Shown here piece by piece: positions 50,774-64,000 of a stretch of DNA of 64,000 nt. The notes beneath the pieces are model-generated. The model saw nothing but the letters and a program-made list of their open reading frames with translations, did not search any database and had not been told where the DNA came from. Made by a program: the position numbers and the translations under genes. Position 1 is the stretch's first letter. Every line of letters starts with the position of its first letter. This stretch comes from Martelella endophytica (GTDB lineage: Bacteria; Pseudomonadota; Alphaproteobacteria; Rhizobiales; Rhizobiaceae), in contig NZ_CP010803.1 in NCBI RefSeq assembly GCF_000960975.1, positions 4,681,818-4,745,817 on the forward strand, in the 5' to 3' direction.

Positions 50774-51646
50774 TTATAGGTCCTTTTTCAGGCGGGGATC
50801 CAGCATGTCGCGCAAACCGTCGCCGACAATCTGGAGAGATAGAACGGCAAGGATGATTGCCAGGCCAGGGAAAAGTGTCATCCAGTCGGCCGAACCGAGA
50901 TACTGACGGCCCGCGGCAATCATCGTGCCCCAGGTCGGCACTTCGGGGCTGACGCCAAGGCCGAGAAAGGAGAGGCCGGCTTCGGCCAGGATGGCGTTGG
51001 CGAACAGGAAGGTCGCCTGCACCAGGATCGGCGAGACCAGATTGCGCAACACATGCCGGGTCATGATGTGCCCGGTGGAAATGCCCATGGACTGCGCCGC
51101 CTCGACGAACGGCAGCTCGCGGATGACCAGCGTGGAGGCGCGGACAATACGGGCGAGCCGCGGCGCATAGACGATCGACAGTGCAACGATCACCGTCATC
51201 AGTGACGGCCCGAGAGCTGCCACCAGCGCAATCGCCAACAGGATGTCGGGAAACGCCATCATCGCATCGATCAGCCGCGCGATGATCGTATCGAGACTTT
51301 TGAAGAAGCCGGCAAGAAGGCCGAGCACGATGCCGATGACGGCTGAAAGCACCACGACCGACGCGCCGACGAGAAGCGACAGGCGCCCGGCAAAAAGCGT
51401 GCGGGCGAAGACATCCCGACCGAACTCGTCCGTGCCGAACCAGTATTCGGCACCCGGCGGAGTCAGGCGGTGGGCGATCGAAAGCTTGTAGGCCGAATGC
51501 GGCGTGATCCAAGGCGCGAAAGCAGCGAGCAGGACGAAGACCACCAGCACGAAAAGGCCGAAGGCAACGCTCTTGCGCTTCAGAAGCTGCCGGATGAATT
51601 TTGCTCCTTCACGCCCGGAGCTGTCGGCGGTTTGCGTATCAGCCAT
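50774..51646 (-). CDS. ABC importer permease, DppC type
   Basis: 290 residues. After the first membrane segment (SVAFGLFVLVVFVLLAAFAPWI) comes YWFGTDEFGRDVFARTLFAGRLSL, the DppC signature. The EAA loop is LPFVEAAQSMGISTGHIMTRHVLRN. It ends QIVGDGLRDMLDPRLKKDL. Its start overlaps the stop of the DppB-type gene by one base, so the pair is translationally coupled. Confidence 0.92.
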   Translation of the reverse strand: MADTQTADSSGREGAKFIRQLLKRKSVAFGLFVLVVFVLLAAFAPWITPHSAYKLSIAHRLTPPGAEYWFGTDEFGRDVFARTLFAGRLSLLVGASVVVLSAVIGIVLGLLAGFFKSLDTIIARLIDAMMAFPDILLAIALVAALGPSLMTVIVALSIVYAPRLARIVRASTLVIRELPFVEAAQSMGISTGHIMTRHVLRNLVSPILVQATFLFANAILAEAGLSFLGLGVSPEVPTWGTMIAAGRQYLGSADWMTLFPGLAIILAVLSLQIVGDGLRDMLDPRLKKDL

Positions 51647-52620
51647 CAGTAGCGGACCCTCGGGTCGACAAGCAGGTAAAGCATGTCGATTGCAAAGTTG
51701 ATGAGAACATAAAGACCGGCGATCACCAGCAGCGCGCCCTGAATGACCGGATAGTCACGCCGCAGAACGGCCGAGACGACCAGGCTGCCGACGCCGGGAA
51801 GCGCGAACACGGTTTCCGTCACCACCGCGCCGGCGACCAGCACGGCGGCGGTCAGGCCAAGAACGGTCAGGATCGGGATCAACGCGTTCTTCAGCGCGTG
51901 CTTCAGGACGACGCGTCCCTCCGCCAGCCCCTTGGCGCGGGCGGTGCGGATATAATCGTCATTGAAGACATCCAGCATGGCAGCGCGGGTGAACCGCAGG
52001 ATGAGCGCGGAGGACACGACACCGAGCGACACCGCCGGCAGCACGAGATGCTGCAGCCGGACCCAGAAGCTCGCGCCGGGCCCGCCATAGCCAGACACCG
52101 GAAAGATGCCGAAACGGACGGCAAAGACCTGAATAAGGATGAGGCCAAGCCAGAAACTCGGCACGCTCGCCGCCGTCATGGCCACCACGGTGGAGGCCTG
52201 GTCGATGAAGGAGCCGCGCCGATAGGCCGCATAAATGCCGACCGGAAGGGCGATGACGGCCGCCAGAATCAACGAAAACATCGTCAGGAAGAAGGTCGGC
52301 TCGGCCCGCTGGGCAAGCGCCGTCGTCACCGGAATGTTCAGGAAGATGGACTGCCCGAGATTGCCCTGCAGCATCTGCCCGATATAGAGCACATATTGCT
52401 GGAGGATCGACTGGTCGAGGCCAAGCCTGGACCTCAGATCGGCGATGTCCTGCGGCGTCGCATCCGGTCCGAGCATCACCGCGGCCGGATCGCCAGGGGT
52501 CACGCGGACGATCACGAAGACGATCGTGACCACCAGAAACATCACGATGATCATTCCAAACAGGCGTTTGAGAATATACCGGATCATGAATTCGTTTTCC
52601 TGTTTCGGCGGCCCGGACAT
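51646..52620 (-). CDS. ABC importer permease, DppB type
   Basis: 324 residues. After a basic start, the segment LFGMIIVMFLVVTIVFVIVRVTPGDPAAVMLG is the DppB signature. The EAA loop is DYIRTARAKGLAEGRVVLKHALKNA, and it ends MLYLLVDPRVRY. It lies 24 bases after the beta-glucosidase gene. It forms the channel with the 50774-51646 product. Confidence 0.92.
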   Translation of the reverse strand: MSGPPKQENEFMIRYILKRLFGMIIVMFLVVTIVFVIVRVTPGDPAAVMLGPDATPQDIADLRSRLGLDQSILQQYVLYIGQMLQGNLGQSIFLNIPVTTALAQRAEPTFFLTMFSLILAAVIALPVGIYAAYRRGSFIDQASTVVAMTAASVPSFWLGLILIQVFAVRFGIFPVSGYGGPGASFWVRLQHLVLPAVSLGVVSSALILRFTRAAMLDVFNDDYIRTARAKGLAEGRVVLKHALKNALIPILTVLGLTAAVLVAGAVVTETVFALPGVGSLVVSAVLRRDYPVIQGALLVIAGLYVLINFAIDMLYLLVDPRVRY

Positions 52621-52644
52621 GCCGGGCCAGCGCTCTTGGCAAGC

Positions 52645-53973
52645 TCAGAGGGCATTCTTGGCGATCACGCCCTTCAGCCAGTGATAGGAGGCCTTCGGAA
52701 TGCGCTGCAGCGTCGGATAATCGACATAAACGAGGCCGAAGCGCTTGGAATAGCCGCGCCCCCACTCGAAATTGTCCATCAGCGACCAGGCGAAATAGCC
52801 GCGGATGTCGTGGCCTTCATCGATCGCGTCGAGGAGCGCGCCGAGATACTGGTTGAAATAGCTGATGCGCTGGGGATCGACGACCGTGCGGTCCGGTCGC
52901 AACATGTCGGGATAGGAGGCGCCGTTTTCGGTGATGTAGATGACGGGCTTGCCGTAGCGGTCGCTTGTGTCGCGGATCTGTTCCAGGAAGGCGCCCGGAT
53001 CGACAAGCCAGTTGACATCCGTGAGCGGCCCCATGCCGGACGGCGGCATGACTTCGGAATAGCCAAGCGTGGCGTTCGGATTGGGCGCGACGAAGACCGG
53101 GTTGTAGTGATTGAGACCGAAGAAATCGAGCTTCTGGCTGATCTCCTCCATATCGCCGGGTTGGATCAGCGGTTCGATCTTCTCGGCAATCGGCTCGGGA
53201 TATTTGCCGAGCCAGAGCGGATCGACCATGACACGCCGCCACATGCAGTCGCCGAAGATGCGCGCCTCTTCATGCGCAGCGTCGTCATAGTGCGGGCGCA
53301 CAGGTCCGAGCGAAACGATGTTGCCGATCTCGGCATCCGGCGCCTCGGCGCGAACGGCGGTGACCGTCTTGCCATGGGCGAGATTGAGATTGTGGATGGC
53401 CTGAAGGCAGGCGTCGTAGCTCTGCTTGCCCGGCGCATGACGGCCGAGATTATAGGCGACCCACGGTATCACGTTTGGCTCGTTGATCGGGGCAAAGCGC
53501 TTCACCCGGTCGCCGAAGCGGCGGATGACCTCGGCGACATAATCACCGAAGATCTTGGCGGTTTCGCGCGAACGCCAGCCGCCGGCCTCCTCGATCGGCA
53601 CGGGCATGTCCCAGTGATGCAGGCAGATCCAGGGCTCAATCCCCTCGTGCAGCATCAGATCGATCAGCCGGTCGTAGAAGTCGACACCGAGCTGGTTCAC
53701 CTGCCCCTTGCCCTCGGGGAAGATGCGCGGCCAGGCCGTCGACAGCCGGAAGGCCTTGACGCCAAGCCCGCGCATCAGCGCGATGTCTTCGGGATAGCGG
53801 TGATAGTGGTCACAGGAGACGTCGGCGGTATCGCCGTTCACGATATTGCCCGGCACCTTCGCATAGGCATCCCAGACGCTCGGACCGCGACCGTCGGTTT
53901 CGGTCGCCCCTTCGGTCTGGTAGGCGGAGGCAGCAGCCCCCCAAAGAAAATCGGGTGGAAAGTTACGAGCCAT
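52645..53973 (-). CDS. beta-glucosidase/beta-glycosidase, GH1
   Basis: 442 residues, full length for bacterial GH1. It shows the N-terminal FPPDFLWGAAASAYQTEGA, the acid/base Glu in PINEPNV (near residue 162; usually TLNEP), the nucleophile Glu in YITENGAS (near residue 346) and the aglycone-side WSLMDNFEWGRGYSKRFGLVYVDY. There is no signal peptide, so the glycoside is cut in the cytoplasm after import. Its place between the binding protein and permeases implies that the transported compound carries a beta-linked sugar. Confidence 0.95.
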   Translation of the reverse strand: MARNFPPDFLWGAAASAYQTEGATETDGRGPSVWDAYAKVPGNIVNGDTADVSCDHYHRYPEDIALMRGLGVKAFRLSTAWPRIFPEGKGQVNQLGVDFYDRLIDLMLHEGIEPWICLHHWDMPVPIEEAGGWRSRETAKIFGDYVAEVIRRFGDRVKRFAPINEPNVIPWVAYNLGRHAPGKQSYDACLQAIHNLNLAHGKTVTAVRAEAPDAEIGNIVSLGPVRPHYDDAAHEEARIFGDCMWRRVMVDPLWLGKYPEPIAEKIEPLIQPGDMEEISQKLDFFGLNHYNPVFVAPNPNATLGYSEVMPPSGMGPLTDVNWLVDPGAFLEQIRDTSDRYGKPVIYITENGASYPDMLRPDRTVVDPQRISYFNQYLGALLDAIDEGHDIRGYFAWSLMDNFEWGRGYSKRFGLVYVDYPTLQRIPKASYHWLKGVIAKNAL

Positions 53974-54098
53974 CGATGCGCTTTCAGAAAATGGTACAAG
54001 CCGTTTGCGGACGAGATCGCGCGCCAGCTCAGGGCGAGAACTGGGCGAGGTGTTCCCGGCAGCGCTGCCGCCGGAAACACTGTCTTTTCAGCGAAGGA

Positions 54099-55622
54099 TT
54101 ACTTGCCGTTTTCCGTGCTGACGTTCCAGAAATAAGGCCACGGCGACGGCTGGAAGTCTTCCAGCGTCTTGGCTTCGGCGCTCAGCGAGTTGAAATCGCC
54201 GACCTTGAACACCGGAGCCTCTTCATAGAAGGCGGCCTGCACGTCACCGAACAGTTCCTTGCGCTTTTCCGGATCCGCTTCGGCGAGGAAGGGGTCGGTC
54301 ACGGCATGCTTTTCAGCCGAAGCCCACCAGCCCGGATAGTCATCGGACATCCAGCCATTCAGAGCCGGTTCGGCCGGGAATGGACCGTGGGTGATGAAGA
54401 TGTCCCAGAGGCCAGGATCCGCACGGCGCTGGGTCAGCGTTGCCCAGTCGTAGACTTCAAGCTCGACCGGGAAGCCCGCCATCTTCAGATATTCGGCGGC
54501 GACCTGCGCCATCTTGTAGTGGAACTCATACTGGCGGCTCGTGAGGATGCGCAGCGGGCTGCCGTCATATCCGGCTTCCTCAAGCATCTTCTTGGCCGCT
54601 TCCGGATCACCATCGCCGTAGCGCTCGACGCCCTGATCGGTGTGCCAGACATAGCCTTCGGGGTAGAGAGAACCGTCGACGGCAAAGAAGCGCGGATCGC
54701 CAAAGGCTGCAAGCAGCATGTCTTCGGGGTTCAGCGCTTCCTGAACGGCGTGGCGGATACCCTTGTTGGTCATCATGCCTTCCTTCGTGTTCATCACGAA
54801 GACCGGCGCGCCATAGGGCTCGAGGATCACCGGAAGCGCATTGTCCGAGCTCTCGAGCCGATCATAGCTCTCGGTCGGCAGACTGTCGGCATAATCGAAC
54901 TGGCCCGAGGCAATGCCTTCGAGGCGGGTATTGGCATCAGCAACCGGAACGAAGCGGATCTCGTCCAGGACCGCTTCGCGCTTACCGCCGAAACCGCTGG
55001 CCGCTTCGCTGCGGGCGGCATAATCGTCGAAGCGGACAAGCTGAATATACTGATCGGGCTTATGGTCCTTCAGCATATAGGGACCCGTGCCGATGAACTT
55101 GGTCAGAGGCTCGGCCAGGTTTTCCTTCGGCATGACGACGGCGGCTGAATTGTTGAAGGCGAGAAGCGAGAGCAGCGGCGCATAGGGCTTCTCGAGTTCG
55201 ATGCGGATCGTGTCGTCGCCGGTCGCGGTCACGCTCTTGATGTAGGGCGCGGCCTGCTTGCCGCGCGAGGCGATTTCCATCCAGCGGTCGATGCAGGCAA
55301 CGACGTCGCTCGAATCCATGATCGAACCATCATGGAACGGCACGTTGTCCCTGAGCTTGATGTCATAGACCGTTCCGTCCTCGGACACGTCCGGCATGGT
55401 CTCGGCCAGAAGCGGCACGACGTTCCATTCGTTGTCATAGGTGAACAGCGTTTCGAAAATGTGCTGGGTGGTCATGCCGACGACATCGGCCGTGGACGCC
55501 ATCGGATCGAGCGTCGGCGGCTCGCCGATGGTGGCGACATCAATGATGCCGTCAGCCAGGGCGGCGACAGGCGCAAGCGGCAGAACAGCACAGGTGGCAG
55601 CGAGCAGCATTCGTCTCAACAT
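54099..55622 (-). CDS. ABC importer binding protein, peptide family (SBP_bac_5)
   Basis: 507 residues from MLRRMLLAATCAVLPLAPVAALADG, a signal peptide (the ATG at 55610 is an alternative start). It shows IGEPPTLDPMAST, IFETLFTYDNEWNVVPLLAETMPDVSEDG and KFIGTGPYMLKDHKP. It is the first gene of the operon, so it names the substrate class of the system: a compound with a beta-glycosidic bond and an acylated amine by inference from its neighbours. An AT-rich region with inverted repeats precedes it. Confidence 0.9.
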   Translation of the reverse strand: MLRRMLLAATCAVLPLAPVAALADGIIDVATIGEPPTLDPMASTADVVGMTTQHIFETLFTYDNEWNVVPLLAETMPDVSEDGTVYDIKLRDNVPFHDGSIMDSSDVVACIDRWMEIASRGKQAAPYIKSVTATGDDTIRIELEKPYAPLLSLLAFNNSAAVVMPKENLAEPLTKFIGTGPYMLKDHKPDQYIQLVRFDDYAARSEAASGFGGKREAVLDEIRFVPVADANTRLEGIASGQFDYADSLPTESYDRLESSDNALPVILEPYGAPVFVMNTKEGMMTNKGIRHAVQEALNPEDMLLAAFGDPRFFAVDGSLYPEGYVWHTDQGVERYGDGDPEAAKKMLEEAGYDGSPLRILTSRQYEFHYKMAQVAAEYLKMAGFPVELEVYDWATLTQRRADPGLWDIFITHGPFPAEPALNGWMSDDYPGWWASAEKHAVTDPFLAEADPEKRKELFGDVQAAFYEEAPVFKVGDFNSLSAEAKTLEDFQPSPWPYFWNVSTENGK

Positions 55623-56068: not shown

Positions 56069-56971
56069 TCAGCGCCCCGGCAATCCGCTGGTCAGCACGT
56101 CGATTGCGTAGAGCGATGTCGATGCTGTGATGAACAGCCTGTTTCGCTGCGGCCCACCGAAGGTGCAGTTCGCGACGATCTCCGGCACCAGTATCCTGCC
56201 CAGCCGTTCGCCCTCCGGCGTGTAGACCTGGATGCCGTCATGAGCCGAGGTGAAGATGTGTCCGTGAACATCGAGCCGGAACCCATCCGGCGCGCCGGGC
56301 AGAACTTCGGCGAAGATGCGGCCATTTCTGAGGTGCCGTCCGTCCGCCACCTCGAAGACGCGAATATGCGGCGGCCCGTCGGGCGCATCGGATCGCCCGG
56401 TATCGGAAATATAGAGAAGGCTCTCGTCCACCGAGAAGGCGAGCCCGTTCGGCCTGTCGAAATCGTCGGCGACGACGGTGAGCTCGCCGGTTTCCGGATC
56501 GAAGCGATAGACATAGCAGGCACCGATCTCGCTGTCCGCCTTGACGCCCTCGTGATCGGAGAGGATGCCATAGGGCGGATCCGTGAACCAGATCGTGCCA
56601 TCGGATTTCACCACCACGTCGTTCGGTGAATTCAGGCGCTTGCCATCGTAGCGGTCGACCAGCGTGACCACCGCGCCATCGGCCTCCGTGCGGCTCACCG
56701 CGCGGCCGGAGTGCTCGCAGGAGACGAGCCGCCCCTCGCGGTCGCGCGTGTGGCCATTGGTGTGTCTGGATGGCTGGCGGAACACCGAGCCGCCTTCTTC
56801 GGGATGCCAGCGCAGCATCCGGTTGTTGGGAATATCGCTCCAGGTGACGCTGCCGTCCTCCCACCAGACCGGCCCCTCGCTCCAGATCGCCCCGGTCCAG
56901 AGTTTCTCGAGCTTCGCATCCGGCGCCACCAGTGCGGCCATACGCGGATCCTCGACAATCACATCACCCAT
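56069..56971 (-). CDS. SMP-30/gluconolactonase-family lactonase
   Basis: 300 residues from MGDVIVEDPRMAALV (ATG 56971; GGGAGGAGATTGTT upstream). This six-bladed propeller hydrolase has the metal ligands of the family: Glu in WSEGPVWW, Asn in LNSPNDVVV and Asn/Asp in RPNGLAFSVDE. It opens sugar lactones such as gluconolactone or arabinolactone. There is no signal peptide. It lies downstream of the hydroxyproline genes with a 192-base gap and could belong to the L-arabinose branch suggested by GH127 nearby; that link is inferred. Confidence 0.88.
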   Translation of the reverse strand: MGDVIVEDPRMAALVAPDAKLEKLWTGAIWSEGPVWWEDGSVTWSDIPNNRMLRWHPEEGGSVFRQPSRHTNGHTRDREGRLVSCEHSGRAVSRTEADGAVVTLVDRYDGKRLNSPNDVVVKSDGTIWFTDPPYGILSDHEGVKADSEIGACYVYRFDPETGELTVVADDFDRPNGLAFSVDESLLYISDTGRSDAPDGPPHIRVFEVADGRHLRNGRIFAEVLPGAPDGFRLDVHGHIFTSAHDGIQVYTPEGERLGRILVPEIVANCTFGGPQRNRLFITASTSLYAIDVLTSGLPGR

Positions 56972-57163
56972 AACAATCTCCTCCCGGTCGCTGCGGATCC
57001 AAGCGCCCGCGCGCCTCGCCGGCGCGCAAATCTGAACCCGCGGCATGGTAGGCGGTGTCGCGGGCCACTGTACAGAGAGGAATTGACGGGCGCCTGCCCG
57101 GCTGCCGCAATGTCGCGAACTGTCTCGGATTGAAAGCCCGCCCCGCGGACGCCGGCCGATAGA

Positions 57164-58096
57164 TCAGATAACGATGCCGTTGCGGAAGGGGTCGGCGGGA
57201 TTGAAGATCAGTTCGGCGACCGCCATGACATAGGCTTGTCCCGTGATCGACGGGATCACGCCGCCGGTCGGCCCCGCCTTGTAGGATAATGTGTAGGTGG
57301 AGCCGATGATGCTCTCCTGCACGATCTGCTTGCCCTCCCCCATTCGCCCGGAGGCCGCAAGGCAGGCCAGTCGGGCCGAGGAGCCGGTGCCGCAGGGGGA
57401 GCGGTCATAGGCATCGTCCGGGCAGAGCACGAAGTTGCGGCTGTGCGCCGCCTCGTCATCGGCAGGGCCGTAGAAGATGACGTGGTCGACCGGCTCGCCA
57501 TTCTCGCCGCCGATCTTTTCTTCGTTGAGCGCGGTTCGAGTCGCAATGGCGAGATCGGTCAGCGCGCGGATATTGCTCGCCACCACCGGGATCGGGCTCG
57601 GATCGACCAGGAAGAACCAGTTGCCGCCATAGGCGACGTCGCCGGTCACGATACCAAAACCCGGCACATCGACCGAGGCGCCAGCCGCGACCCGACGGCT
57701 CTCGATATTGGTGACGGTGATCGTGTTTGCGTCCTTGACATCGACGGTGACGACGCCGGCGGGCGTCTCGATGCGGTGCTGCCCGGTGCCGATCAGGCCC
57801 ATGTGATAGAGCGTGACGGCAAGCCCGATGGTGCCGTGGCCACACATGCCCAGCACGGCGCCGACATCGAAGTAGATGACACCGGTGACGCAGGTCGGAT
57901 CCACCGGCGGCACCAGCAGCGCGCCGACCATGGCGACCTGGCCGCGCGGCTCGAGCACTACGGCGCGGTAGTCGTCGTAGTGACGGGTCGCAAGCCGTGC
58001 CGCGCGCTCAGAAAGCGGGCCGGAACCGAGATCGGGAAAGCCGTCGAGAATGACCCGCGTCGGCTCGCCTGCGGTGTGGCTATCAATCACATGCAT
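57164..58096 (-). CDS. hypRE: 4-hydroxyproline 2-epimerase (proline racemase family)
   Basis: 310 residues. It starts MHVIDSHTAGEPTRVI, as in hydroxyproline epimerases. Both catalytic Cys are present: GMCGHGTIG (near residue 88) and SPCGTGSSA (near residue 235). With Cys at both positions it is an epimerase and not the trans-3-hydroxyproline dehydratase, which has Thr at the second. It converts trans-4-hydroxy-L-proline to cis-4-hydroxy-D-proline, the first step of bacterial hydroxyproline breakdown. It follows the deaminase gene by 41 bases. The D-hydroxyproline oxidase is not in the window. Confidence 0.88.
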   Translation of the reverse strand: MHVIDSHTAGEPTRVILDGFPDLGSGPLSERAARLATRHYDDYRAVVLEPRGQVAMVGALLVPPVDPTCVTGVIYFDVGAVLGMCGHGTIGLAVTLYHMGLIGTGQHRIETPAGVVTVDVKDANTITVTNIESRRVAAGASVDVPGFGIVTGDVAYGGNWFFLVDPSPIPVVASNIRALTDLAIATRTALNEEKIGGENGEPVDHVIFYGPADDEAAHSRNFVLCPDDAYDRSPCGTGSSARLACLAASGRMGEGKQIVQESIIGSTYTLSYKAGPTGGVIPSITGQAYVMAVAELIFNPADPFRNGIVI

Positions 58097-58137
58097 CCGC
58101 TACTCCCCGGTCTGGCTCGGTTTCGGGTGGCCCGTGT

Positions 58138-59070
58138 TCAGGCCGCCCAGCTGGCGTACCAGGTCTTGAACTGGTTGTAATGCTCTTCGACGAAGGCCTT
58201 CTGCGGCGCCGTCAGGGCGTCGGTTTCGTTGAAGTGCAGGGTATATTCCGTGTCGCCGTTCAGCACCATCAGATATTTGTAGAACAGCACGAGATCGACC
58301 CCCTCGTCGAATTTCGACAGCACCATCAGCGCCTCTTCGAGCGCGCGCGCCTTGACGCGGGCTTCGCTGTCGCCACGGGCGGCGGCCTCGCAGAGCGAAA
58401 CGAGATGCAGCACCTCCTTGGGCAGCGCGTTGCCGATGCCGGTGATCGCCCCGGTGGCGCCGCATTTGACGAAGCCATGGAAGACCTGGGTATCGACGCC
58501 GACCATCAGGGTCAGTTCGTCATCGCCGGAAGTGATGTGTTCGGCGGCATAGGAAAGCGAGGCGGCGCCGCCGAATTCCTTGAAGCCGATCAGATTGGGG
58601 TGCTCGGCGCGCAGCGCGAAGAACAGGTCGGCGCGGGTCTCGAAGCCGTAATAGGGGCTGTTGTAAATGACCGCGGGCAGGCCGTTCGCAGCCGCGAGAA
58701 TGGCCGAGAAATGCGCCTTCTGCGCTGAGGCCGACGAGCCGCGCGACAGAACCCGCGGAATGACCATCAGCCCGGCGGCACCGACGCGGGCGGCATGGGC
58801 AGTGATCGCCACTGCGGATTTGGTGTTGATCGCACCGGTTCCGACGATCACCGGAACACCAGCCTCGACCAGCGCCTCGACGCCCTTCATCCGCTCCTCG
58901 TCGGTGAGAAGCGGCCAGTCCCCCATCGACCCGCAATAGACGACGGCCGACATGCCCGCGTCGACGAGTTCCCGACCCTTGCGCGCAAGTGCTGAAAAGT
59001 CCGGCGTGCGGTCGGGCTTGCAGGGTGTCATCAGCGCCGGAATGCAGCCGGTGAAAATCGTGTCGCTCAT
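58138..59070 (-). CDS. hypD: 1-pyrroline-4-hydroxy-2-carboxylate deaminase (DHDPS family)
   Basis: 310 residues of the dihydrodipicolinate-synthase aldolase superfamily. The Schiff-base Lys is in NLIGFKEFGG and the catalytic Tyr in AVIYNSPYYGF. VYCGSMGDWPLLTDEERMKGVE and MVIPRVLSRGSSA match what I recall of hydroxyproline-pathway deaminases and differ from DapA. It turns pyrroline-4-hydroxy-2-carboxylate into alpha-ketoglutarate semialdehyde and ammonia. It is the first gene of the unit with the epimerase. The palindrome TTGTCGACAA lies 124 bases upstream. Confidence 0.85.
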   Translation of the reverse strand: MSDTIFTGCIPALMTPCKPDRTPDFSALARKGRELVDAGMSAVVYCGSMGDWPLLTDEERMKGVEALVEAGVPVIVGTGAINTKSAVAITAHAARVGAAGLMVIPRVLSRGSSASAQKAHFSAILAAANGLPAVIYNSPYYGFETRADLFFALRAEHPNLIGFKEFGGAASLSYAAEHITSGDDELTLMVGVDTQVFHGFVKCGATGAITGIGNALPKEVLHLVSLCEAAARGDSEARVKARALEEALMVLSKFDEGVDLVLFYKYLMVLNGDTEYTLHFNETDALTAPQKAFVEEHYNQFKTWYASWAA

Positions 59071-59192
59071 CTGGGGACCTCTTCTTGGGCAGATGGAAGT
59101 GGAGCCGATGCGGAAGACTGCGAGCAGCCCTCGGCCCGCAGATCAAGGCCGCAGCCGACCAAGTTGAAAACTCAGTAACACTCAGAATACAG

Positions 59193-59204
59193 TTTGTCGA
59201 CAAA
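59193..59204. promoter_or_regulatory. palindromic operator upstream of the hydroxyproline genes
   Basis: TTTGTCGACAAA, a perfect 12-base palindrome. Its 10-base core recurs exactly at 60411-60420 before the arabinofuranoside importer. The form TTGT-N2-ACAA is typical for GntR/FadR-type regulators, the class that controls hydroxyproline genes in Sinorhizobium (HypR). No GntR gene is in the window. Confidence 0.6.
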
Positions 59205-59299
59205 TAAAACGATAACCGATCGGACGGGCGGTCCGGCGCGGCCGAACCTGCTCTGCCGACAAAGTGCGCGTCCGAAGACCGGCCGGCTCCTGCCCGAAA

Positions 59300-60328
59300 T
59301 CATCGCCGCTGTTCCGCGCCTGGTCGCTTCGCGACGCTCTCGCGGCGAACGAGCGAACATGGCAGGCGGGTTATACCCTTGTCGACCGGCTCGTTCCGGG
59401 TCAGCCGCAGCATCGCCAGGCCGGCGCGGTGGCCGATTTCCTTGAGCTCCATATCGATGGTCGTCAGCGGCGGACGGGTCTGGCGCGAGACGACTTCCCA
59501 GTTGTCGAAGCCGATCACCGAGATGTCATCCGGCACCGAGATGCCATGATCGCGCAATCCGTCGAGGACCCCGCGCGCAATCTCATCGCTGCCGCAAAAG
59601 ATGCCGTCGGGCAGCTTTTCGCGCGCGGCCAGCACCTGCTCGATCGCCGCGTGGCCCCACTCTTCCGACCATTCACCGAACATTACCGGAGATGCCGGCC
59701 GACATCTGTCGCGATAGGCCGCGGCGCGATTTCGGGCCGCAAGCCAGCCTTCCGGTCCGGTGATGTGGAGAATCTCGCGGCAGCCGGCCGCTTCAAGGCA
59801 GGCGATTGCCAGCATCGCACCGTGGGCGTCGTCGGGGACAAAACTGGTGCTGTGCGACGGTCCGGCGGCGAAGGCGTAAACGACGGGAATGTTGAGGGCG
59901 GTCAGATCGATGGGCGGGTCGACATCAAGGCGGGTCGCCGTGAAGATGATGCCGTCGACCTGCTTGTCGAGCAGCGCCTGGAGATGGAGCTCGGCGAGCC
60001 GCTTGTCGCCGCTCGTGGCGCAAAGAAACGCCGAGACGCCGTGATCGACCAGAACCTCCGAGACGCCGGAGCTGATCGGCAGGGTCAATCGGCCATAGGT
60101 GTCGTCGGTAATGATGCCGATGGTGAGGCTTCTGCGGCTCAAAAGGCTTCGGGCCAGCGCGTTCGGCCGGAAGCCGATTTCCTGCGCGATCCGGAGCACG
60201 CGTTCGCGGGTTTCCGCGTTCACCCGGCCGACACCGTTCAGTGCATTCGATGCAGTCGACAGGCTGACATCGGCCGCCTTTGCGACATCCCTGAGGGTGC
60301 ATCGGCGATGCAGAATGGGTTTCACCAT
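59300..60328 (-). CDS. LacI-family transcription regulator
   Basis: 342 residues. The helix-turn-helix CTLRDVAKAADVSLSTASNALNGVGRVNAETRERV and hinge GFRPNALARSLLSRRS precede a sugar-binding effector domain (TIGIITDDTYGRLTLPISSGV...GIFCGSDEIARGVLDGLRD). It diverges from the importer and GH127 genes, and two long perfect palindromes lie in the shared gap. It probably represses that operon and responds to an arabinose-type sugar. Confidence 0.92.
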   Translation of the reverse strand: MVKPILHRRCTLRDVAKAADVSLSTASNALNGVGRVNAETRERVLRIAQEIGFRPNALARSLLSRRSLTIGIITDDTYGRLTLPISSGVSEVLVDHGVSAFLCATSGDKRLAELHLQALLDKQVDGIIFTATRLDVDPPIDLTALNIPVVYAFAAGPSHSTSFVPDDAHGAMLAIACLEAAGCREILHITGPEGWLAARNRAAAYRDRCRPASPVMFGEWSEEWGHAAIEQVLAAREKLPDGIFCGSDEIARGVLDGLRDHGISVPDDISVIGFDNWEVVSRQTRPPLTTIDMELKEIGHRAGLAMLRLTRNEPVDKGITRLPCSLVRRESVAKRPGAEQRR

Positions 60329-60344
60329 GAAGCTCTAATCCTCG

Positions 60345-60394
60345 TTGATAAAACCTTTTATCAAACAAAACAAAGCTGCAAAAAGGTTTTTGCA
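60345..60394. promoter_or_regulatory. two LacI-type operators in the divergent gap
   Basis: TTGATAAAA-CC-TTTTATCAA (60345-60364, 9-base arms) and TGCAAAAA-GG-TTTTTGCA (60377-60394, 8-base arms) are perfect inverted repeats spaced 32 bases apart centre to centre, about three helical turns. A TTATCAA half-site follows at 60442-60448. This layout fits binding of LacI-type dimers. Confidence 0.65.
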
Positions 60395-60410
60395 CATTTG
60401 TGAACACAAC

Positions 60411-60420
60411 TTGTCGACAA
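60411..60420. promoter_or_regulatory. TTGTCGACAA palindrome before the arabinofuranoside importer
   Basis: An exact repeat of the core found at 59194-59203, 66 bases before the importer start and separate from the LacI operators. It suggests a second regulator shared with the hydroxyproline genes. Confidence 0.6.
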
Positions 60421-60485
60421 CGATTTTTTTCTCCCATACCGTTATCAAACGTCAAGAAGAAAGACGAAACGAGAAGGGGAATGAC

Positions 60486-61730
60486 ATGCTGAAAAACAAA
60501 CTCATGCTTGCTGCATTGACGCTGGCAGCATCCACCTCATGGGCCCAGGCCGAGGAGGTGAACCTCTGGGTTCGCACCTCATCCGCAGCCGTGCTGCAGG
60601 CATTGGCCGAGAAATACAATGCCGCCCACGACGACACCGTGAACGTCACCGCGGTCATCGCCGAACAGATGGTGCCGAAGCTTGGCGCGGCGATCGCCGG
60701 CGGCGCCCCGCCAGAGGGTGCAGTGCTCGACCTGATCTACCTTCCGACATTCGCCGCCAACGACACGCTGGAAGACATCACCGATTTCGTCGAGGGCCTG
60801 CCCTATGCCGACGCGTTGAGCCCATCCCATATCCGTCTGGCCACCTATGACGACCGGATCTATGGCGTTCCCGCCCTGCCTGACGCCTCGATCATCGCCT
60901 ACAATACCGATCTTTTCAAAGAAGCCGGACTTGACCCGGACAAGGCCCCGGCCTCGCTCGACGAGATCGTCGACGACGCCGAGAAGATCAGCGCGCTCGG
61001 TGACGACACCTACGGCTTCTACTTCGTTGCCAATTCCGGTAGCTGGCTGATCTACGACTTCCTGCCGCATATCTGGGCGGCCGACGCCGATCTCCTGACC
61101 GATGACGGTCGCGAAGCCACGATCGACACACCGGCCATGCGTGAAACGCTTGAAGATTACCGCACGATGTGGCAGGCGGGCGCCATTCATCCGACGTCGC
61201 GTTCCGGCAATGGCAACAATGCCGTCGAGGCCTTTGCCTCGGGCAAAGTCGGCATCTTGATGACCGGTTCCTACATCGTCAATCTGCTGACCAGCACCTA
61301 CCCCGACGTCAATTTCGAGGTTGCGCCCATTCCCGGCCCGACCGGCGGCCAGTCGAGCTTTGCCGGCGGCGACACGCTTGCCATGATCAAGGGCATCACG
61401 CCTGAAAAGAAGGCCGTGATCGAGGACTTCGTGACCTTCTACATGGAGCCCGAGCAACAGGTATTCATCACCCAGGAATCCGGCATGCCGTCGCGCACCG
61501 ATCTCGCGGAGGAAGCCTATTCCAATTTCGATCCGCGCAACCTCATCGCCTACGACATCCTGGCAAAGGCGCGCACGCCCTACACCTATGCCTCGGATGA
61601 GCTCTTCGTCAGCCGTACCGGACCGTTCCTGAACCTGATCCAGAGCGCGATCTTCGGCGATGATGTGGACGGCGCGATCGAAACCGCGCAGGAGGATTTC
61701 ACCAAGATCCTCGACCGCACCAATCCGTGA
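60486..61730 (+). CDS. CUT1 sugar-binding protein (SBP_bac_1)
   Basis: 414 residues from MLKNKLMLAALTLAASTSWAQA (ATG 60486, GAGAAGGGGAATGAC upstream), a Sec signal peptide; the frame is open from 60345, but that part covers the operators. It shows EVNLWVRTSSAAVLQALAEKYNAAHDD and VGILMTGSYIVNLL. It delivers an oligosaccharide to the permeases at 61851 and 62768. The GH127 gene downstream points to beta-L-arabinofuranosides as the ligand. Expression is expected to follow the LacI regulator at 59300. Confidence 0.9.
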   Translation: MLKNKLMLAALTLAASTSWAQAEEVNLWVRTSSAAVLQALAEKYNAAHDDTVNVTAVIAEQMVPKLGAAIAGGAPPEGAVLDLIYLPTFAANDTLEDITDFVEGLPYADALSPSHIRLATYDDRIYGVPALPDASIIAYNTDLFKEAGLDPDKAPASLDEIVDDAEKISALGDDTYGFYFVANSGSWLIYDFLPHIWAADADLLTDDGREATIDTPAMRETLEDYRTMWQAGAIHPTSRSGNGNNAVEAFASGKVGILMTGSYIVNLLTSTYPDVNFEVAPIPGPTGGQSSFAGGDTLAMIKGITPEKKAVIEDFVTFYMEPEQQVFITQESGMPSRTDLAEEAYSNFDPRNLIAYDILAKARTPYTYASDELFVSRTGPFLNLIQSAIFGDDVDGAIETAQEDFTKILDRTNP

Positions 61731-61850
61731 CGCTCGGCCGCGGGCGGCCCGCGCCGCCCGCGTCTCTCCCCCGCCGCAAGGGGATAGCAGAGCCTCGGAG
61801 AAGCCGCTGCGCGGCCCCGCAGACCTCACCAAACGCAGGGATTTGACGTC

Positions 61851-62771
61851 TTGTTTTTCAAGCGCGCGCTACAGAAACGCCGACAGGCGAGCGGCGATGA
61901 GCCACATGGTTGGCTGGGCCTCGCCTTCATTGCGCCGAGCATGGTGTTCATCATCGGCCTGTTCATCATTCCGCTCATCATGACGGTGTGGATGAGCTTC
62001 TTCCGCTGGCCGCTACTCGGCCGCCGCAAGTTCATCGGCATCGACAATTATGCTGAGCTTCTCGGCGATAGCCAGCTCTGGCAGTCTTTCGGTTTCACCC
62101 TGCTCTATACGGTGCTGGTCACCACTGCGATCATGGCCGTTGCCCTGCCGCTGGCGCTGCTGGTCGACCGGCCGCTGCGCAGCGTCGGCTTCTTCCGCAC
62201 GGTGTTCTTCATGCCGGTGGTCATCGGCTTCGGCGCGGCCTCGACGCTGTGGCTCTGGCTGCTCAATCCCGACAGCGGCGTATTCGCGCGACTTCTGACC
62301 GGGCTTGGGCTTTTCGATCACGCGCCGCGACCGCTCGAAAGCTTCTGGCCTGCGCTTGCCGTCATCATCCTGATGGTGGTCTGGAAAACCGCCGGTTTCA
62401 CCATGGTCATTCTGCTCACCGGCCTGCAGAGCATCCCCAATGATGTGATCGAGGCCGCCCGGATCGATGGCGCGAGCCCCTTCAGCCGCTTCCGCCGCAT
62501 CACCCTGCCGCTGATGCGCAATTCCGTACTCCTGGCGCTGATCCTCAACGTCACCTCCTCCATGCTCGCCTTCGACCAATTCTTCATCATCACCCAGGGC
62601 GGACCAAACAACAGCACGATCTCGGCCGTGTTCACCATCTATCTCGCCTCATTCTCGTCCTATCGGTTGGGCTACGGCTCCGCCCTTTCCTTCGCCCTCC
62701 TGGTCGTGCTCGTTGCCATCAGCTCGATCCAGCTTTCCTTCATGCGCCAGCGACCGGAGGACGGACGATGA
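61851..62771 (+). CDS. CUT1 sugar importer permease (MalF/UgpA-like)
   Basis: 306 residues if translation starts at TTG 61851 (CGCAGGGA upstream); no ATG lies earlier in frame without crossing the gap. The N-terminal segment GLAFIAPSMVFIIGLFIIPLIMTVWMSFF, the EAA loop NDVIEAARIDGASPFSRFRRITLPLMRN and FIITQGGPNNSTISAVFTIY identify the MalF-like partner. The 120-base gap from the binding-protein gene is GC-rich and could allow differential expression. Confidence 0.9.
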   Translation: MFFKRALQKRRQASGDEPHGWLGLAFIAPSMVFIIGLFIIPLIMTVWMSFFRWPLLGRRKFIGIDNYAELLGDSQLWQSFGFTLLYTVLVTTAIMAVALPLALLVDRPLRSVGFFRTVFFMPVVIGFGAASTLWLWLLNPDSGVFARLLTGLGLFDHAPRPLESFWPALAVIILMVVWKTAGFTMVILLTGLQSIPNDVIEAARIDGASPFSRFRRITLPLMRNSVLLALILNVTSSMLAFDQFFIITQGGPNNSTISAVFTIYLASFSSYRLGYGSALSFALLVVLVAISSIQLSFMRQRPEDGR

Positions 62772-63640
62772 AAGTCAGAGACCTGTTCATGGAAGCCGAC
62801 GAAGGCTACGGCGCCGTTGCCGGCCGTCTCCTCCTGCTCCTGGCAATGATCATTCTGGCTGTGTTCTTCCTGATGCCGATCGTCTGGTCGTTCGCCAATT
62901 CGTTCAAGCCGGCGGCCGAGGCACTGGCCCATCCGGTGGCACTGTTTTCGAAGGCGTTTTCGCTGGAAAACTACCGCCGTCTCGAAAATGTCGGCGCCGG
63001 CTGGTATGTCTATGCCACCAATTCCGTGCTGATCGCGCTCGGCACCATCGCCTTCACCGTCGCGGTCGCGGTGCCTGCCGGTTACGGCTTCTCCAAGTTC
63101 CGCTTTCCCGGCCAGACCGCGATCTTCGTCCTCGTCATGGCGACGATGATGATCCCGTTCCAGTCGATCCTGACGCCGCTGTTCCTGATCCTGAAATTCC
63201 TGCACCTGCAGAACAGCCTTCTGGGGCTGGTGCTGATCTACACCACGTTTCAGCTCCCCTTCTCGATCTTCATGATGCGCAATGCCTTCGATGCGATCCC
63301 GAAGGCGCTGGTGGAGGCGGCGCGCATCGATGGCGCGTCACAATGGACGCTGGTGCGGCGCATCCTGATGCCACTGGCGCTGCCCGGCGTCGCCACCGTC
63401 GTGATGTTCGCCTTCCTCAATTCCTGGAACGAGTTCCTGGCGGCGCTGATCTTCCTGTCGGACCAGAACAAGTTCACCCTGCCGATCATGCTGGTGAACG
63501 TCTCATCCGGCATTTACGGCATCATCGACTGGGGCGCGCTCCAGGCCGGCATTTCGCTCACCATGATCCCCTGCATCGTGATGTTCCTGGCGCTGCAGCG
63601 CTACTATGTGCGCGGACTGACCGCCGGGGCCGTCAAATGA
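62768..63640 (+). CDS. CUT1 sugar importer permease (MalG/UgpE-like)
   Basis: 290 residues with an ATGA overlap on the preceding gene. The first membrane segment is LLLLLAMIILAVFFLMPIVWSFANSF. The EAA loop is KALVEAARIDGASQWTLVRRILMPLALPG, and the protein ends YVRGLTAGAVK, as in MalG-like permeases. No ATPase follows before the GH127 gene, so the energising subunit lies outside the window or is shared with another CUT1 importer such as the one at 25473. Confidence 0.92.
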   Translation: MKVRDLFMEADEGYGAVAGRLLLLLAMIILAVFFLMPIVWSFANSFKPAAEALAHPVALFSKAFSLENYRRLENVGAGWYVYATNSVLIALGTIAFTVAVAVPAGYGFSKFRFPGQTAIFVLVMATMMIPFQSILTPLFLILKFLHLQNSLLGLVLIYTTFQLPFSIFMMRNAFDAIPKALVEAARIDGASQWTLVRRILMPLALPGVATVVMFAFLNSWNEFLAALIFLSDQNKFTLPIMLVNVSSGIYGIIDWGALQAGISLTMIPCIVMFLALQRYYVRGLTAGAVK

Positions 63641-63663
63641 ATAATGCTTCCCAAGGAGTTTCC

Positions 63664-64000
63664 ATGTCATCGTCCGCGTCGGAAAAGGCGGTTCCCGCGT
63701 CTGCGCACAGTTTTGAACGTTATGTGCCTGTCGATCACACCCGGGTCGCCTTTGATGGCGGCTTCTGGAAGAGCTGGCAGCAGACCGTCCGCGACGTCAC
63801 CATTCCCACCCAGCACCAGCGGTTGGAAGAAGAAGGCTTTCTCGAGGTTCTGGATTTCGACAGCCCGCCCGGCCCGCTAGCCAGGCCGATCCAGCCGAGC
63901 GGATTGTCGATGCAGCATTTCTTCGATTCCGATTTCGGCAAGTGGATCGAGGCGGCAAGCTATACGCTGAAGAACCATCCGAACCCGGATATCGAGGCGA
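63664..64000 (+). CDS. GH127 beta-L-arabinofuranosidase (DUF1680), N-terminal part
   Basis: About 112 codons, cut by the right edge. ATG 63664 follows AAGGAGTTTCC and is preferred over the ATG at 63637 that overlaps the permease stop. Recognisable family start: VAFDGGFWKSWQQTVRDVTIPTQ, then LARPIQPSGLSMQHFFDSDFGKWIEAASYTLKNHPNPDIEA, the DUF1680 pattern. GH127 enzymes release L-arabinose from beta-linked arabinofuranosides, including hydroxyproline-linked arabino-oligosaccharides of plant extensins. The catalytic Glu and Cys lie outside the window. No signal peptide is seen, so it should be cytoplasmic. Confidence 0.82.
   Translation, partial: MSSSASEKAVPASAHSFERYVPVDHTRVAFDGGFWKSWQQTVRDVTIPTQHQRLEEEGFLEVLDFDSPPGPLARPIQPSGLSMQHFFDSDFGKWIEAASYTLKNHPNPDIEA

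Follow-up and report, generated by a model that had tools for sequence, protein, structure and literature searches.

Why should genes for the breakdown of hydroxyproline lie back to back with those of a sugar importer and an arabinosidase? The question arises at the right-hand end of a 64,000-nucleotide stretch, referred to here as the window (positions 4681818-4745817 of the single-contig genome of Martelella endophytica, a bacterium of soil and plants, 4,812,500 bases). A first-pass annotation of its sequence had noticed that a 4-hydroxyproline 2-epimerase, a pyrroline-4-hydroxy-2-carboxylate deaminase, a LacI regulator, a CUT1 importer and the start of a GH127 glycoside hydrolase follow one another, and this layout is borne out by open reading frames at those places and by their family and domain matches. 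We consider it likely that both operons, which lie back to back, belong to a single regulon of the HypR type that serves the catabolism of fragments of plant hydroxyproline-rich glycoproteins. This reading is based on gene identities assigned by sequence and on the conservation of neighbourhood and operator, from which we infer the substrate, the enzyme activities and the assignment of the regulators to their sites.

Gene neighbourhoods of the GH127 operon

Loci carrying a GH127 of the window type were collected from named genomes (80 loci, taken with as much as 10 kb on either side, 11 of them cut by contig ends), and marker proteins were located in them by tblastn. The CUT1 unit was present in 66/80 and LacI, at an identity of at least 55%, in 60/80. 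An Xaa-Pro peptidase (marker XPP or XPA) was found in 38/80, a proline-iminopeptidase-like hydrolase (PIP) in 33/80 and either peptidase in 48/80, together with an Opp importer in 15/80 and a gene of the dihydrodipicolinate synthase (DHDPS) family, marker DHDPS2, in 12/80. The name "iminopeptidase-like" is a guess, because the closest solved relative is the Arabidopsis protein At3g61540, proline iminopeptidases being weakly similar, and no NCBIfam model matched at 1e-20. Hydroxyproline genes were less common, with HypO (at least 38% identity) in 7/80, HypH in 2/80 and any of the four genes in 12/80; a peptidase or a hydroxyproline gene was present in 53/80. Loci of other GH127 types, used as controls with stretches of about 6-11 kb on each side, had a peptidase in 0/21 and a hydroxyproline gene in 1/21, a set made up of 20 loci with neither gene class and G088 as the single positive, which was outside the original 20 and was added as the 21st because it had been fetched for the deaminase near its GH127. 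The excess of peptidases over these controls was significant (Fisher 1e-7). Since the markers PIP, XPP, DHDPS2 and GntRrl had been picked after viewing plasmid pRL10, and relatives from Rhizobium leguminosarum are not independent, the loci were thinned at 85% identity to 34 clusters, of which 19 kept a peptidase and 9 a hydroxyproline gene, and the peptidase excess persisted (Fisher 7e-6). The six deaminases in the flanks of the 80 loci are far above the random expectation of 0.11, calculated from the family frequency and genomes of 5 Mb.

In the R. johnstonii plasmid pRL10, the cluster comprises LacI, importer, GH127, ATPase, a DHDPS-family gene, a GntR regulator, the iminopeptidase-like gene, an Xaa-Pro peptidase, a fucosidase and an Opp importer. 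Marinibacterium (L122) has HypR, deaminase, epimerase, HypO, importer, GH127, ATPase and iminopeptidase-like hydrolase in a single run. The nearest named relatives of the window GH127 belong to Martelella (94% identity with Martelella mediterranea IOP_24), and two Martelella loci (L061 and L063) combine the GH127 operon with deaminase, epimerase, HypH, Xaa-Pro peptidase and Opp genes, all of which are missing from three others (L062, L064 and L126). HypO and an epimerase lie downstream of GH127 at three Kaistia loci, where the CUT1 unit is absent, and Opp genes stand beside GH127 at 5/6 Devosia and 2/2 Cohaesibacter loci. The DHDPS-family gene of pRL10 was ruled out as a deaminase of the window type (31% identical) and left out of the 12 hydroxyproline-gene loci; it may encode another hydroxyproline deaminase or a dehydratase of an arabinose route. 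Genes of this family were seen beside the HypR-type site in L054 (18101-19012) and between GH127 and HypO/HypRE in Kaistia L128 (11942-12943).

Some further arrangements were noted on the way. At G088 (L041 13420-19900 and L042), the operon of a GH127 of another type is preceded by a HypD gene 82% identical to that of Sinorhizobium meliloti, a possible independent link between GH127 and hydroxyproline. Beside the GH127 operon of Brucella endophytica (L066, 1155-5486) lie genes for oxidoreductases dependent on flavin adenine dinucleotide (FAD; assigned by Pfam), which flank a small gene and are accompanied by a small protein that looks like RidA, a set that may resemble a multi-subunit D-hydroxyproline dehydrogenase. 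In Cohaesibacter L120 (7605-9484), a trans-sulphuration-like gene and another GntR gene, both named by look, lie between Opp and GH127.

Among 199 genomes of the family, GH127 was found at E 1e-100 or better in 32 and at an identity of at least 74% in 10, Martelella endophytica included. The deaminase occurred in 71/199, namely in 8/10 genomes with the close GH127 versus 63/189 of the others (Fisher 0.0045), and the PIP-like hydrolase in 11/199, four of them among the ten (Fisher 0.0009), both tests ignoring kinship. An epimerase of the window type was present in 4/199. The family genomes and the set of 80 loci overlap (G081 is L109, G161 is L064 and G050 is L066).

The shared palindrome and its regulator

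Both operons are preceded by the exact palindrome TTGTCGACAA, located at 59194..59203, about 124 bp upstream of the deaminase start, and again at 60411..60420, upstream of the gene for the solute-binding protein (SBP) of the importer. The genome contains 15 exact copies versus 5 of a reversed-letter control; 12 of the other 13 gave no lead, nine of them lying inside predicted genes and three between unrelated genes. The palindrome is also found upstream of the deaminase genes of S. meliloti, Thioclava, Rhizobium ACO-34A, Martelella and Marinibacterium, and the S. meliloti stretch has two copies of its core TGTCGACA, one before hypR, the other between this gene and hypD. Deaminase promoters from 40 other family genomes, picked from the 71 by their place in the list and with the promoters unseen except that of G161, where the site is present, had the core in 26 cases and the full palindrome in 19, whereas the next palindromic 8-mer occurred in 5; some of these genomes carry a GH127 elsewhere. 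Of these cores, 24/26 were located 70 to 118 bp before the start of the match.

At the GH127 loci, the core was present in 55/63 intergenic regions between LacI and SBP, the window's included, while 200 first-order shuffles gave a mean of 0.13 and a maximum of 3. Counted by gene within 250 bp, where divergent pairs share one site and the counts are not independent, the core was found upstream of SBP in 55/65, XPP in 26/28, DHDPS2 in 11/12, GntRrl in 14/18 and HypR in 2/2 cases, of the two types of Opp genes in 13/14 and 0/1, respectively, and of the deaminase in 4/4 and 1/2 by two markers. The SBP core was kept in 18/24 representatives after thinning. Genes inside the importer operon had it in 1/66 and 0/66 (permeases) and 0/65 (ATPase), and GH127 itself in 7/79. 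Where GH127 stands without the importer operon, it was preceded by the core in Kaistia (3/3), Cohaesibacter (2/2) and Martelella 175.2, and at none of L110, L111, L113, L114 and L139. No control gene had it (19 other LacI, 52 other ATPase, 17 and 11 other permease, 8 rhamnosidase and 7 fucosidase genes), and among the SBPs of other GH127 loci it was found in 1/20 within 400 bp. On pRL10, one core precedes SBP, one separates DHDPS2 from GntR and one lies between the iminopeptidase-like and Xaa-Pro peptidase genes, with two more inside genes.

The motif of the FadR subfamily, TKGT/ACMA, is fitted by TTGTCGACAA, and the GntR regulator of pRL10 shares 60% identity with HypR of S. meliloti and 74% with that of the Martelella genome; the motif is taken from PMC6608401, according to which DNA binding by S. 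meliloti HypR was not tested. These data suggest that the shared palindrome is probably a site of the HypR/GntR type and not a LacI operator. Since a HypR gene was not found in the locus of the window, which counts against the proposal, control of its operons by HypR would be exerted in trans.

The LacI-family regulator (59300..60328, minus strand; PF00356 and PF13377) has candidate operators of its own. Two further palindromes, which the first-pass annotation had not mentioned, lie between its gene and the HypR-type site, TGATAAAACCTTTTATCA at 60346..60363 and TGCAAAAAGGTTTTTGCA at 60377..60394. The motif TGNNAAANNNNTTTNNCA was found in 58/63 LacI-SBP intergenic regions, again including that of the window (shuffles, mean 0.08), and twice in 35 of them, with a start-to-start spacing of 31 or 32 bp, as between the pair in the window, in 33/35. 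Its centre lies 30 or 41 bp from that of the HypR-type core in 42/51 cases. It is absent from the deaminase promoter, even with up to 2 mismatches, so that LacI probably acts on no more than the GH127 operon, the shared site being that of HypR. The first-pass annotation had implied that LacI owns TTGTCGACAA and controls both operons, as the presence of the palindrome in both promoters, close to lacI in the window, might suggest. However, the same palindrome precedes deaminase genes with no GH127 nearby, in S. meliloti it stands at hypR and hypD, for which an incomplete gene table lists neither LacI nor GH127 within 10 kb, and other paired palindromes, missing from the deaminase promoter, fit LacI. 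Given this distribution of sites and the separate motif, we rejected ownership by LacI as very unlikely. A palindrome common to both operons is confirmed, and its conservation reaches far beyond this genome, but its regulator would be HypR in the place of LacI.

Several counts weigh against a single regulon. GH127 is repeatedly linked with proline peptidases and less often with hydroxyproline genes, but the epimerase (at least 60% identity) and the deaminase were near it in only 6/80 loci each. Among the ten family genomes with the close GH127, the deaminase is near it in only two (Martelella endophytica and G081), and in Martelella L062, whose GH127 is 92% identical, none of these genes lies within 10 kb. 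Neither a peptidase nor a hydroxyproline gene was found near 27/80 loci, 3/12 of the hydroxyproline-gene loci (L113, L114 and L139) depend on a HypO match of 38-40% alone, and against the small control the hydroxyproline-gene count is not significant (Fisher 0.29). The core itself is missing before 10/65 SBP genes and 14/40 deaminases, was found in only 19/34 PIP and 3/10 XPA upstream regions, and does not directly precede HypO (0/7), the epimerase (0/3 and 0/3) or HypH (0/2).

The scarcity of epimerase and deaminase genes beside most relatives of the GH127 operon would be expected if this operon served the beta-L-arabinofuranose of pectin, as in arabinan tips and rhamnogalacturonan II, and lay near hydroxyproline genes in the window by accident. 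The rhamnosidase and fucosidase genes nearby on pRL10 point in the same direction, as does the kinship of GH127 and GH146 enzymes with the aceric acid hydrolase BT1003. Such a role is nevertheless improbable in view of the peptidases that recur next to this GH127 and are absent at other GH127 types, and of the HypR-type core before most SBP genes; in addition, the window GH127 scored 366 bits with the aceric acid hydrolase model NF049879, far from the cut-off of 950. A HypR-type regulon for hydroxyproline-rich glycoprotein fragments is the explanation that we prefer.

Enzymes, importers and the imported molecule

In the proposed route, the CUT1 transporter would import a beta-L-arabinofuranosyl compound, from which GH127 would strip arabinose inside the cell, and hydroxyproline would yield alpha-ketoglutarate through the action of epimerase, HypO oxidase, deaminase and HypH semialdehyde dehydrogenase. 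Relatives have Xaa-Pro peptidases, Opp importers and often the PIP-like hydrolase with the same operator, and these would provide hydroxyproline from peptides. HypR would sense the hydroxyproline side, and LacI, through its two operators, would add a control by sugar restricted to the GH127 operon.

Two of these steps are encoded on the minus strand of the window. The epimerase (57164..58096), a member of the proline racemase superfamily, reaches 549 bits with the NCBIfam 4-hydroxyproline epimerase model NF052296 (cut-off 450), has the active-site Cys/Cys pair in MCGHG and DRSPCGTG, and has 4juu as its best solved relative. It follows, after a gap of 41 bp, the 1-pyrroline-4-hydroxy-2-carboxylate deaminase (58138..59070), which is 72.8-73.5% identical to the protein of the listed S. 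meliloti records and whose best solved relatives are 2hmc, 4mpq and 5czj. In S. meliloti, a GntR gene is followed by the deaminase gene, and in one record their neighbours include genes for an amino-acid importer, a 4-hydroxyproline epimerase and a FAD oxidoreductase; by its closeness to S. meliloti HypD, the deaminase of the window is assigned to the HypD type. The remaining steps have candidates elsewhere in the genome. Relatives of HypR, HypO and XPP at 2203773-2206892 end a same-strand run headed by TTGTCGACAA at 2215409 (L179 9674-19901 and L167 1-6031; 2.2027-2.2155 Mb), which begins with a gamma-glutamyltransferase-like gene (below the model cut-off) and continues with an Opp-type importer (named by look and by weak tblastn matches), a BASS-like transporter (by look), HypR, HypO, XPP and a HypY-like gene. 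A second GntR gene diverges from the head of this run. The HypH relative lies at 2024394 and a PIP-like gene at 1828619. Identities to the S. meliloti proteins are 62% for HypR, 49% for HypO and 65% for HypH, so that by homology relatives of every hydroxyproline step are encoded in the genome, two of them inside the window.

The first-pass annotation had expected the rest of the GH127 gene, an ATPase, an oxidase and a semialdehyde dehydrogenase to the right; the first two were found there, while the oxidase and the dehydrogenase are the distant genes just described. GH127 is taken to start at 63664 (63664..64000, plus strand, in the window; ATG after AAGGAG) and runs past its edge to a total of 647 residues. 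Nine bp downstream, just beyond the edge, follows an ATPase of the UgpC type, at which the operon is taken to end because the next gene encodes a binding protein of metal ATP-binding cassette (ABC) transporters. The full protein scores 334.6 bits with PF07944 (cut-off 24.9), its middle and C-terminal domains are also above their cut-offs (74.3 and 80.3 bits), and it aligns nearly over its full length with the GH127 entry 4qjy of the PDB (E 6e-183). E329, E345, C347, C413 and C414 align with positions 322, 338, 340, 417 and 418 of 3wkw (HypBA1), counted by hand, and E322, E338, C340, C417 and C418 of HypBA1 are its catalytic and zinc-site residues. The fragment at the right edge had been recognized correctly, and the gene is a true GH127, predicted to be a beta-L-arabinofuranosidase. 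By inspection, it has no signal peptide. The cysteine nucleophile and the zinc site are stated in PMC8106489.

The importer genes lie on the plus strand and comprise the SBP (60486..61730, its start taken as the ATG at 60486) and two permeases with PF00528 domains (61851..62771 and 62768..63640), whose nearest NCBIfam models, UgpA and GlcU, respectively, were matched below their cut-offs. The best solved relative of the SBP is 6LCE/6LCF (E 6e-51; next best 1e-24). According to PMC8106489, 6LCE is the beta-arabinobiose-binding protein of Bifidobacterium longum, and a reference cited there places it in a pathway for hydroxyproline-rich glycoproteins. By this similarity, the SBP of the window is of the beta-arabinobiose type. 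A second GH127 locus of the genome (L004, 573000-592000) has a GH127 about 49% identical and a CUT1 importer of another type, whose SBP has 4qrz as best relative (E 4e-156) and 6LCE at 8e-16; GH3, isomerase-like, Gfo/Idh-type and LacI genes are seen there by look.

What is imported is a point on which versions of this reading differ. Sugar and amino acid might enter separately, CUT1 taking up free beta-arabinobiose or a similar sugar, which GH127 splits, as in B. longum, and hydroxyproline arriving as peptides or as the free amino acid; the shared origin of the two products in these glycoproteins would then be the sole reason for the co-regulation of the operons. In favour of this, the best solved relative of the SBP binds beta-arabinobiose exclusively, and GH127 genes lacking the CUT1 unit stand beside Opp genes at four Devosia loci (L110, L111, L114 and L139), both Cohaesibacter loci and Martelella 175.2, which argues that peptides have an entry of their own. 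An outside enzyme releasing the disaccharide would, however, be required, and we judge separate entry to be quite possible, if slightly short of probable. At the other extreme, one molecule, arabinosyl-hydroxyproline or an arabinosylated peptide, would be imported intact by a dedicated glycopeptide regulon and both halves burned via the same intermediate. Alpha-ketoglutarate semialdehyde is the common end point of the oxidative L-arabinose and hydroxyproline routes. This idea is a long shot; if it were true, rhizobial plasmid clusters such as that of pRL10 could target the extensin of infection threads and the arabinosylated CLE peptides that limit nodulation, and the bacterium could use a plant signal as food and remove it at the same time.

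The lactonase at 56069-57046, once suggested for the arabinose branch, was discarded as a member of the system; a relative (E up to 1e-20) occurs in only 1/80 GH127 loci (L133), so that it is not conserved with the locus. To its left, at 51646-55622 of the window, a GH1-like gene and an Opp/Dpp-type permease and binding protein were seen by look, and no TGTCGACA is present there.

Comparison with known systems

Hydroxyproline-rich glycoproteins are common in plant walls and on root surfaces, and in the literature covered, largely as titles and excerpts, no account of their whole use by root bacteria was met. Earlier work there deals separately with arabinose, in Bifidobacterium and Xanthomonas, and with hydroxyproline, in Sinorhizobium and Streptomyces. 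HypR regulons with hypE, hypO, hypD and hypH are described in PMC5343134, whose extract names no glycosidase; the use of extensin by Latescibacteria was inferred from GH127, in an account that, in the passages retrieved, ends at arabinose (PMC4454575); and the retrieved portion of the survey of genome neighbourhoods of the proline racemase family (PMC4113996) has no occurrence of arabin-, glycos- or extensin. Titles and beginnings of abstracts from the open PubMed Central literature yielded, among the matches listed, none joining GH127 with hydroxyproline catabolism. Across Rhizobiales, a conserved palindrome connects the operon of an arabinosidase and its importer with proline peptidases and hydroxyproline catabolism, which opens the complete route to testing and offers a possible role for genes whose annotation goes no further than sugar ABC transporter, beta-L-arabinofuranosidase domain protein or dihydrodipicolinate synthase family protein.

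The beta-L-arabinooligosaccharide system of B. longum consists of HypBA2 (GH121), an ABC importer for beta-arabinobiose and HypBA1 (GH127), and the set described here shares with it the GH127 family and catalytic residues and a related SBP of the importer. Whereas the excerpts on B. longum describe the sugar part alone, the Martelella-type set ties in hydroxyproline catabolism, proline peptidases and a HypR-type operator. With the S. meliloti HypR regulon (hypR, hypD, hypO, hypH and epimerase) it has in common related deaminase, HypO, HypH and HypR proteins and the same palindrome at hypR and hypD, but here the candidate operator extends to the GH127 operon and a sugar importer; in addition, the epimerase of the window fits NF052296, while the S. 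meliloti-like one of Kaistia L128 fits NF010578. In Streptomyces coelicolor, as far as the consulted extracts go, a GntR-family repressor, also called HypR, links hydroxyproline catabolism with a protease of the collagenase type, although its motif is CTNTGC(A/C)ATGTCAC and no arabinosidase belongs to the described regulon. Xanthomonas euvesicatoria is likewise a plant-associated bacterium, with an enzyme, XeHypBA1, acting on arabinosylated hydroxyproline (PMC10850190; PMC6085000), but its arabinofuranosidase belongs to GH146 and the available parts of these papers describe no linked hydroxyproline catabolism. The co-regulated set would appear to be a new combination of known parts, present in Martelella and many related rhizobia.

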